Shown here: one piece after another, positions 61,671-64,000 of the stretch
Layout of the letters: each line of letters begins with the position of its first letter
Numbering within the stretch: the first letter of the stretch is position 1
Source: Lentzea albidocapillata
GTDB taxonomy: Bacteria; Actinomycetota; Actinomycetes; Mycobacteriales; Pseudonocardiaceae
Length of the DNA stretch: 64,000 bases
Assembly (NCBI RefSeq): GCF_000719115.1
Contig: NZ_JOEA01000003.1
Span: forward strand, 344,160 to 408,159
Reading direction: 5' to 3'
Translations under genes and position numbers: made by a program
Notes under the pieces: model-generated
The model's input: the letters and a program-made list of their open reading frames with translations, nothing else
What the model was told of the DNA's origin: nothing
Database searches by the model: none

Positions 61671-62726
61671 GTGCGTGACATAGCGGTAGTCGGCTTCGCG
61701 CAGACGCCCTGCGTGCGCGAGACCGACGGCACCACCAACGGTGTCGAGATGCTGGTGCCGATCTTCCACGAGGTGCTCGGCGGGCTCGGAATCACCAAGA
61801 CCGACATCGGGTTCTGGTGCTCGGGCTCCTCGGACTACCTGGCCGGGCGCGCGTTCTCGTTCGTCTCGGCGGTCGACGCGATCGGCGCCTTCCCGCCGAT
61901 CGCCGAGTCGCACGTCGAGATGGACGCCGCGTGGGCGCTCTACGAGGCGTGGGTGAAGCTGCTCTGCGGCGAGATCGACACCGCGCTGGTCTACGGCTTC
62001 GGCAAGTCCTCGGCCGGGCAGCTCCGCCGGGTCATGGCGATGCAGCTCGATCCGTACCTCGTGACACCGTTATGGCCGGATTCTCTTGGCCTGGCGGGCA
62101 TCCAGGCACGTATGGGCATCGAGAACGGCCTGTGGGACGAACGCGCGATGGCCTCTGTGGCCGCGCAGAGCCGTTCCGCCGCCCTGTCGAACCCGCTCGC
62201 CCAGCTGTCCGGCGAGGTCGGCGCCGACGAACTGCTGGCCCTCCCCTACGTCGCGGATCCGTTGCGGCGGCACGACTGCGCGCCGATCACCGATGGTGCG
62301 GCGACGATCGTGCTTGCGGCAGGCGACAAAGCGCGGGAGCTGTGCGAACGTCCGGCGTGGATCACCGGTTTCGAACACCGCGTCGACTCGCCGTCGTTCG
62401 GCACGCGCGACCTGACGACTTCCCCCTCTGCCGTGGCGGCCGGCAAGGCGGCGGGCGCCGACGGCGTCCAGGTGGCGGAGCTGCACGCGCCGTTCACCCA
62501 CCAGGAAATCCTGCTGCGTCAGGCACTCGGGCTCGGTGACGACGTCACCGTGAACCCGTCGGGCGGCGTGCTGGCGGGCAACCCGATGTTCGCGGCCGGG
62601 CTGGCGCGCATCGGCGAGGCCGCACGCAGGATCCACGACGGCTCGGCGACCAAGGTCCTCGGCCACGCCACCAGCGGGCCGTTGCTCCAGCAGAACCTCG
62701 TCTGCGTGATGGAAGGGCGTGAGTGA
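61671..62726 (+). CDS. ltp4: SCP-x-like thiolase/aldolase Ltp4
   Basis: This 351-residue thiolase-fold protein (Rv3522-like) starts VRDIAVVGFAQTPCVRETDG. DTALVYGFGKSSAG covers the region of the usual nucleophile, but no cysteine is there, so classical thiolysis is unlikely. HAPFTHQEIL, VNPSGGVLAGNPMFAAG and GHATSGPLLQQN complete the fold. Ltp3 and Ltp4 are needed in Rhodococcus for C-24-branched side-chain cleavage, thought to be a retro-aldol step. GTG 61671 fits the 7-nt spacing after the DUF35 gene. Confidence 0.92.
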   Translation: MRDIAVVGFAQTPCVRETDGTTNGVEMLVPIFHEVLGGLGITKTDIGFWCSGSSDYLAGRAFSFVSAVDAIGAFPPIAESHVEMDAAWALYEAWVKLLCGEIDTALVYGFGKSSAGQLRRVMAMQLDPYLVTPLWPDSLGLAGIQARMGIENGLWDERAMASVAAQSRSAALSNPLAQLSGEVGADELLALPYVADPLRRHDCAPITDGAATIVLAAGDKARELCERPAWITGFEHRVDSPSFGTRDLTTSPSAVAAGKAAGADGVQVAELHAPFTHQEILLRQALGLGDDVTVNPSGGVLAGNPMFAAGLARIGEAARRIHDGSATKVLGHATSGPLLQQNLVCVMEGRE

Positions 62727-63868
62727 TGCGACCGGCAGCAGTGGTCGGCACCGGCCAGACGCACCACGCCGCGAAACGCCTCGACGTGTCGATGGCGGGC
62801 CTGTGCCGCGAAGCGATCGACCGCGCGATGGCTGACGCCGGCGTGGACTGGTCCGACATCGACGCCGTGGTCCTCGGCAAGGCACCGGACCTGTTCGAGG
62901 GCGTGATGATGCCCGAACTGTTCCTCGCGGACGCGCTGGGCGCGGTCGGCAAACCGTTGCTGCGCGTGCACACCGCCGGTTCGGTCGGCGGCAGCACGGG
63001 CAACGTCGCCGCCAGCCTGGTGCAGTCCGGCGTGCACGACCGCGTTTTGGCCGTGGCGTTCGAGAAGCAGTCCGAGTCGAACGCGATGTGGGCGCTGTCC
63101 GTGCCGACACCGTTCACCATGCCCGTGCACGCGGGCGCGGGCGGCTACTTCGCGCCACACGTGCGTTCCTACATCCGCCGAGCCAGCGCTCCCGAACACA
63201 TCGGCGCGATGGTCGCGGCCAAGGATCGGCGCAACGGTGCCAAAAACCCCTACGCACACCTGAAACAGCCGGACATCACCGTCGAGTCGGTGCAGGCCTC
63301 CACCATGCTGTGGGACCCGATCCGGTACGACGAGACGTGTCCGTCCTCGGACGGCGCCTGCGCGGTCGTCATCTCGGCGGAACCGACGTCGGGCCAGGCC
63401 GCCTGGATCCGCGCGACCGCGATGCGCACCGAGCCCACGACGTTCGCCGGACGCGACCAGGTCAACCCGCAGGCGGGCCAGGACGCCGCCAGGGCGTTGT
63501 GGAAGCAGGCGGGCATCACCGACCCGCTGTCCGAAGTGGACGCCGCCGAGATCTACGTGCCGTTCTCGTGGTTCGAGCCGATGTGGCTCGAGAACCTCGG
63601 TTTCACCGACATCGGGCAGGGCTGGAAGCTCACCGAGGCGGGCGAGACCGAGATCGGCGGCCGCCTGCCGGTGAACCCGAGCGGCGGCGTGCTGTCGTCC
63701 AACCCGATCGGCGCCTCCGGCCTGCTGCGCTTCGCCGAAGCGGCCATGCAGGTCATGGGCACCGCGGGAGACCACCAGGTCGACGGCGCGCGGGTCGCGC
63801 TGGGCCACGCGTACGGCGGTGGTTCGCAGTTCTTCGCCATGTGGGTCGTCGGATCGGAGAAGCCTTGA
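62726..63868 (+). CDS. ltp3: SCP-x-like thiolase/aldolase Ltp3
   Basis: This 380-residue thiolase-fold protein (Rv3523-like) has AAVVGTGQTHHAAKRLD, GKAPDLFEGVMMPELF, VHTAGSVGGSTGNVAASLVQ and VLAVAFEKQSES at the usual nucleophile site (no Cys). VNPSGGVLSSNPIGASGL is followed by GHAYGGGSQFFAMWVVGSEKP. ATG 62726 overlaps the ltp4 stop by one base; GTG 62723 is also possible. The stop codon TGA lies within TTGA at 63865-63868, which is the inferred right terminus of an IS605-type element. Confidence 0.92.
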   Translation: MRPAAVVGTGQTHHAAKRLDVSMAGLCREAIDRAMADAGVDWSDIDAVVLGKAPDLFEGVMMPELFLADALGAVGKPLLRVHTAGSVGGSTGNVAASLVQSGVHDRVLAVAFEKQSESNAMWALSVPTPFTMPVHAGAGGYFAPHVRSYIRRASAPEHIGAMVAAKDRRNGAKNPYAHLKQPDITVESVQASTMLWDPIRYDETCPSSDGACAVVISAEPTSGQAAWIRATAMRTEPTTFAGRDQVNPQAGQDAARALWKQAGITDPLSEVDAAEIYVPFSWFEPMWLENLGFTDIGQGWKLTEAGETEIGGRLPVNPSGGVLSSNPIGASGLLRFAEAAMQVMGTAGDHQVDGARVALGHAYGGGSQFFAMWVVGSEKP

Positions 63869-63960
63869 CTTCTCCCTGCCCTGACGGGCAGGGATTCCCA
63901 CCCGCCGTGCGGCGGGTAGCGCTTACGCGCTGTGCCTCACGGCACGGGGTTCCTGTTTCA
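63865..63960 (-). ncRNA. Putative TnpB guide RNA scaffold (omega RNA/reRNA)
   Basis: On the plus strand four perfect stems follow one another: CCCTGCCC/GGGCAGGG (63874-63893), ACCCGCCG/CGGCGGGT (63900-63917), GCGC/GCGC (63919-63930) and GTGCC/GGCAC (63932-63945). In TnpB elements the RNA overlaps the end of tnpB, folds like this up to the element end, and carries a guide from the flanking DNA. Here the 20-nt guide would be GGCTTCTCCGATCCGACGAC, the reverse complement of 63845-63864, in ltp3. The upstream end is a guess. Confidence 0.6.
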
Positions 63961-64000
63961 CTGCCGATCGCGGAAGGGAGGACCCTTGCCGTCTGACATC
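63923..64000 (-). CDS. tnpB: TnpB-like RNA-guided nuclease/transposase, C-terminal end (partial)
   Basis: The minus-strand frame reads DVRRQGSSLPRSAVKQEPRA, then VRHSA and TAA (63923-63925). The AVKQEP ending is a common tail of actinobacterial TnpB (OrfB) proteins. Only 25 codons are inside the window, so the catalytic RuvC residues cannot be checked. Its stop lies inside the hairpin series of the presumed guide RNA. Confidence 0.7.
   Translation of the reverse strand, partial: DVRRQGSSLPRSAVKQEPRAVRHSA

Follow-up and report, generated by a model that had tools for sequence, protein, structure and literature searches.

IS200/IS605-type TnpB elements at operon junctions of Actinomycetota, with ends that look like a translation patch

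A TnpB element of the IS200/IS605 type reaches with its right end into the window, by which we mean the whole 64,000-nucleotide stretch of Lentzea albidocapillata DNA analysed here, and fills its last 136 bases (63865-64000, minus strand). The insertion lies where an ltp3-like gene and its downstream neighbour overlap, stop codon on start codon, and the element's two ends taken together resemble a translation patch, as they do at many unrelated operons. Neither the overlap nor the pairing of the ends was seen in the initial annotation. TnpB elements are small mobile elements known for RNA-guided DNA cutting, and the present one belongs to the known IS200/IS605 kind; judging from the sequences compared, the new part would be an in-frame stop codon combined with a start signal at the paired ends. 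A translation patch at operon junctions is the likely reading of this arrangement. No description of stop or ribosome-binding signals at the ends of TnpB elements was found among the top-ranked papers of searches in the open-licence PMC literature.

The element at the ltp3 stop codon

The ltp3-like thiolase gene (62723..63868, plus strand; an open reading frame with a Pfam Thiolase_C_1 match at 2.7e-32) receives its stop codon from the element. Its TGA (63866-63868) falls within the terminal TCAA (63865..63868, minus strand), an IS608-type cleavage-site motif that reads TTGA with the ltp3 stop on the plus strand, and 21 empty alleles place the element end exactly at 63865, bearing out the terminus first proposed. 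Further inward on the minus strand come the terminal hairpin CCCTGCCC-TGAC-GGGCAGGG (63874..63893), a GAAT directly 5' of it (63894..63897) in the position of the IS608 right guide sequence, and three more perfect hairpins (63901-63916, 63918-63931 and 63932-63945; sequence and predicted fold, as for the terminal one), presumably a guide-RNA scaffold. All four hairpins are present as initially described, as is the AAGTCAA at the ltp3 stop, which abuts the ltp3 flank. The minus strand of 63845-64000 gave a folding z of -4.39, with 0/200 shuffles folding as well. Transcripts over tnpB ends are known in haloarchaea as sot RNAs, and the sense overlapping transcript family sot0042 of Rfam weakly matched 63873-63987 on the minus strand (29.1 bits against a cut-off of 88, E 6.9e-6).

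The C-terminal end of tnpB occupies 63923..64000 on the minus strand (stop codon at 63923-63925), and the gene runs past the contig end. Its last 25 residues (the final 75 bases of the contig), already recognized as a TnpB-like C-terminus, share 88% identity with P0001, a TnpB of 414 aa whose open frame lies at another place in the same genome. P0001 carries the Pfam domains OrfB_IS605 (2.3e-26), Cas12f1-like_TNB (2.9e-25) and HTH_OrfB (2.1e-17). Residues D198, E282 and D364, which we take to be the putative RuvC catalytic D-E-D residues, are invariant in 18 aligned relatives, three proteins from the macB site described below included.

The right-end block recurs in the same genome with 98%, 90% and 77% identity over 136, 136 and 150 bases, each time up to the query end, and is therefore not a chance feature. 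Two weaker same-genome relatives (73% and 69% identity) lie at L013:3252-3590 and L014:4630-4907, where no tnpB match was found; the one at L014 sits within what reads as a permease gene. Contig C3 stops inside the element, at window position 64000, where a repeat interrupts the assembly: contigs C3 and C17 end in almost identical right ends, and C27 and C30 in almost identical first parts of tnpB (residues 4-85). From the tnpB start, C30 continues into a luciferase-like monooxygenase gene (Pfam Bac_luciferase), the downstream neighbour of ltp3 in relatives. This gene has a single near-full-length copy in the genome (98%; a second match spans 24 bases), which assigns the left end on C30 to the window's element; a left end had been expected beyond 64000. 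The middle of this tnpB copy is absent from the assembly. Open full-length tnpB genes, also anticipated, occur in close relatives in the same genome (C17, C5) and at the ltp3 site of G022, where the frame spans 419 aa.

Among 24 same-genus genomes, the ltp3 site is empty in 21, which have no hairpin block after ltp3 and in which the stop and the next start overlap at NTGA; it is filled in G000 and G022. In the remaining genome, G020, other sequence follows the ltp3 end and contig C29 stops 74 bases later (L303), perhaps because of another insertion. The filled allele reads ltp3 flank, TTGAC ... GGAGGCCATG, GTGAAG. Nothing is duplicated or lost, and the last codons of ltp3 and the GTG of the next gene are both kept. 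The insertion point thus lies between the ltp3 flank and RTGA, the host-strand TTGA closes ltp3 at its old last codon, and a GGAGG at the left end stands five bases ahead of the intact downstream start codon. Truncation of ltp3 by the element was rejected, since empty alleles end at the same codon (one codon later in 2 genomes). The left end is flanked by TTCAC here and by TCAY (tnpB strand) across the family, and not by the TTGAC-like motif that the initial annotation had foreseen. It is short in the window copy, with 29 bases from tnpB to the junction against 119 in the copy near ligA. The tnpB genes at the ltp3 sites of G000 and G022 are 95% identical (246 bases), and the ltp3 and ligA copies of G000 96%; either one insertion or two would fit these sequences.

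By analogy with known TnpB systems, a presumed 20-nt guide (63845..63864, minus strand) would be antisense to the ltp3 end, the flank to which this role had been assigned from the start. In 20 of the 21 empty alleles (G001 fell outside the search pattern) the guide matches 18-20 of 20 bases, and the bases before its target are TTCAC in 7, TTCAT in 9, TTCAA in 2 and ATGCT in 2. The filled allele separates this motif from the target and would therefore be spared from cutting. Homing through a guide from the ltp3 end is plausible. A proposed pairing of scaffold and guide (GGAGAAG with CTTCTCC) fared less well: the complementarity itself exists (7/7), yet it was rejected as a family feature, since among 71 other copies, with duplicates counted and TnpB identity of 60% or more, the best match was 3-6/7; six of them reach 6/7, one being the G022 copy, which has the same guide. 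The 7/7 seen in the window only is accordingly taken as a chance fit.

Other junctions of the same neighbourhood deserve mention. The ltp4-like/ltp3 junction of the window (62723-62726) is a GTGA stop/start overlap, the type of site that these elements occupy. Relatives of the element lie between a ChsH2-like gene and an ltp4-like gene in Actinoplanes regularis (L129:1311-4720) and between an ltp4-like and an ltp3-like gene in Nocardia testacea (L131:1255-4801), in each case at a different junction of apparently the same steroid operon (ltp4 being named here by likeness to the window's gene, not by family match).

Insertion sites across the genus and the wider family

Empty alleles were also available at a phoD site (21 empty, 1 filled, 2 uninformative), an epoxide hydrolase/AlkZ-like site (22 empty, 2 filled) and a macB site within an ABC ATPase/MacB-FtsX pair (15 empty, 8 filled or scarred, 1 uninformative). 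All four sites, ltp3 included, share the same exact junction and lack a target duplication, and in 13/13 of their filled alleles GGAGG lies 4-5 bases before the start codon. The copy near ligA, the fourth close one in this genome, has the same GGAGG end and does not lie at a stop/start overlap.

At the macB site, the element, a partial element or a scar was found in 8 of 23 informative genomes (loci L272, L274, L275, L277, L279, L286, L287 and L288). Five of these alleles keep tnpB with short ends, one is partial (894 bp left), and two are scars of 218 bp and 101 bp without tnpB. A TGA stop at the upstream end and a GGAGG 4-5 bases before the start are present in 8/8, both scars included; in the 218-bp scar a T-to-A change at the first position of TTGA leaves the TGA intact. 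Among the 15 empty macB alleles, none has GGAGG within 16 bases of the start, and three have GGAG 7 bases before it. In the TnpB tree, the five intact macB-site proteins group in a single clade (support 99/99, from a bootstrap that had not fully settled). The usual hairpin is missing from the left ends of these elements, and their tnpB genes are constrained (dN/dS 0.15-0.27 in ten pairs). Presence at the site is scattered over the genus: a tree built from four host loci needs 8 changes, and the shuffle mean is 6.9 (uninformative G017 scored as empty). Both repeated transfer by homing and old gains followed by replacement with empty alleles could account for this scatter. One permease/permease junction is filled in two species, L090 (G017) and L101 (G010), whose TnpBs there are not sisters in the TnpB tree; this points to repeated insertion or to replacement at that site.

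The survey of the wider family drew on 25 genus-level matches, 51 matches from 297 family genomes, at least 80 loci of named genomes and 16 more stretches. A right-end junction with enough flank was available at 133 loci; 132 elements yielded 123 sites once site duplicates were merged, and 105 actinobacterial sites were tested after exclusion of 18 others (16 from cyanobacteria, one from Burkholderia and one from Gemmatimonadetes). Loci L069, L070 and L112 were excluded from clustering, which places the left ends of the window's element (L070) and of the ligA copy (L069) outside the counts; the former passes the downstream test and the latter fails it. Sites were divided by TnpB identity to P0001 into classes of at least 70% (26 sites), 60-70% (35) and below 60% (44). 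The upstream test scored the codon periodicity of the 240 bases before the right end as coding or not, and in which frame. The downstream test asked for a frame starting at the RTG of GGAGG-N4-7-RTGA, the pattern by which left ends were defined.

In the closest class, all upstream flanks that code (16/16) share the frame of the element's TGA (P = 3.5e-13 against 1/6), and 10 of the 26 flanks were not scored as coding. At 60-70% identity the count is 9/14, with two flanks in other frames and three antisense (P = 8.8e-5 against 1/6); below 60% it is 14/18, with four in other frames (P = 2.0e-8 against 1/6). An in-frame stop codon is thus the rule in the close family wherever the flank codes. The GGAGG-N4-7-RTGA pattern is present at 15/26, 3/35 and 20/44 sites of the three classes, in descending order of identity; a downstream frame starts at its RTG in 13/15, 2/3 and 12/20 of these, and both ends fit in 10/15, 1/3 and 6/20. 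As background, 21 of 757 RTGA sites in the window pass the upstream test, 190 the downstream test and 11 both, and 30/941 pass both in 18 related stretches around ltp3, which are not mutually independent. The 11 close sites without the pattern comprise five that were placed by hand with weaker motifs and six that were not placed. Neighbouring gene functions vary widely and include thiolase, epoxide hydrolase, PhoD, an ABC transporter, branched-chain permeases, alpha-amylase, a WYL regulator and sigma factor, and an FAA hydrolase and acetaldehyde dehydrogenase.

Across 31 close copies, no block within the last 50 bases is better conserved than GGAGG, and the same is true of the 13 with short left ends. 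Part of this conservation is by construction, as a G[AG]AGG pattern served to find 25 of the 31 rows; neither the scars nor the 13 alleles positioned by empty-site comparison are subject to this selection effect. Across 18 left ends the Shine-Dalgarno match averages 3.9 against 1.5 in random stretches, a weak measure because these ends were placed by eye.

A probable translation patch and its rivals

From its sequence, GGAGG has both the composition and the distance of a Shine-Dalgarno sequence. The element, inserted exactly at an RTGA stop/start overlap, splits ltp3 from the luciferase-like monooxygenase gene, and its TTGA end gives the upstream gene a stop codon. We propose that its GGAGG, acting as a Shine-Dalgarno sequence, would replace the termination-reinitiation coupling lost on insertion, so that the element would do little harm inside operons. 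That an insertion in an RTGA overlap restores the stop, supplies a Shine-Dalgarno sequence and leaves the operon largely unharmed appears quite probable to us. Survival of harmless insertions, as opposed to a special choice of target, would suffice to explain how often overlap sites are occupied. A coding flank means that TnpB would take a conserved gene end as its guide and could with it cut the empty alleles of relatives, which would favour its retention or spread.

A rival account invokes survivor bias and coincidence: a TCAY target and a TCAA end would by themselves make overlap insertions harmless, and GGAGG would be only a part recognized by the transposase, with no role in translation. 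The excess of in-frame upstream genes can be explained by survivor bias alone, and GGAGG is kept in the ligA copy, away from a gene start. The ends of IS200/IS605 elements are bound via subterminal hairpins and short guide sequences (PMC5934647), and the left end may need the GGAGG stretch. Against this stands the persistence of GGAGG at the right distance from the start in short left ends, where most of the usual end is gone, and in the scars without tnpB, a persistence that transposition cannot account for. The joint retention of TGA and GGAGG in the scars looks, at the level of sequence, like host selection for the patch after the death of the element. We consider the purely coincidental account rather unlikely.

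Two further alternatives concern the fate of the elements. The window copy might be a dead remnant with a broken tnpB, in which nothing is guided by ltp3; its tnpB middle is unassembled and its left end shortened (29 bases). Both assembled ends of this tnpB are nevertheless open and close to intact relatives, the G022 copy at the same site has an open frame, and the collapse of two copies with 96-98% identity during assembly would be expected to leave such a gap, which makes a remnant unlikely. It is also conceivable that the host has co-opted the junction TnpBs as RNA-guided regulators of the surrounding operon, in the manner of TldR proteins, which are known for lost nuclease residues. The macB site, with decayed ends while tnpB remains constrained in five genomes, speaks for such a role, but the putative catalytic residues are invariant, and no loss of nuclease residues was seen in the 18 aligned relatives, macB-site proteins among them. 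Moreover, a filled allele separates the guide target from the flanking motif, and tnpB has been lost in 2/8 macB alleles while the patch stays. Regulatory domestication is on this evidence very improbable. The translation patch is our preferred reading of the paired ends.

Relation to known elements and implications

With tnpB-only members of IS200/IS605 the present elements share the OrfB/TnpB domains, insertion 3' of a fixed short motif and the absence of a target duplication. They differ in the GGAGG left end before start codons and in the concentration of sites at stop/start overlaps. They also lack tnpA, which was found neither at close copies of the element nor in the complete copies looked at; three genes for the Y1 transposase TnpA (PF01797) lie elsewhere in the genome, on C4, C14 and C22. 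The right end resembles that of IS608 in its GAAT, hairpin and terminal TCAA, IS608 having TCAA as right cleavage site and GAAT as right guide (PMC5934647), whereas the flanking motif is TTAC in IS608 and TCAY in the elements described here. Elements of the ISDra2 and SisTnpB kinds likewise combine TnpB domains with a hairpin-rich right end by the presumed guide flank and a motif at the other end; in the present elements, the presumed guide is a conserved coding-gene end at site after site. For Sulfolobus, a right-end motif is described that differs from the cutting motif and so spares the element (PMC11043419).

The nearest precedent is the IStron, also a tnpB-carrying insertion made harmless to genes. 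An IStron is a group I intron fused to an IS200/IS605-type element, and many of them open with a stop codon in the reading frame of the host gene (PMC4227781). IStrons self-splice inside genes, whereas the elements described here occupy gene junctions and bring a stop codon and a ribosome-binding site; no intron family was among the three Rfam matches (E up to 1) in window 63600-64000. Tight coupling in translation has been described for short stop/start overlaps (PMC10666635), and the insertion target is exactly such a four-base overlap. By splitting it, the element should end the coupling and offer a separate ribosome-binding site in its place.

It is possible, if on balance a little doubtful, that these elements represent a broad Actinomycetota class of TnpB elements specialised for operon junctions, with ends shaped as a translation patch, guides taken from conserved coding sequence and homing between species. 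The GGAGG/stop arrangement provides a simple signature for finding more of them, and it carries a warning for annotation, as the stop codon of a gene beside such an element may belong to the element. For homing, a conserved gene end should make a more valuable guide than variable intergenic DNA. Sites at conserved gene ends normally cost the host a gene, a cost that would disappear with ends that restore the stop codon and bring their own ribosome-binding site. If this is true, these elements would move by homing from one species to another into gene ends that are closed to ordinary insertions.
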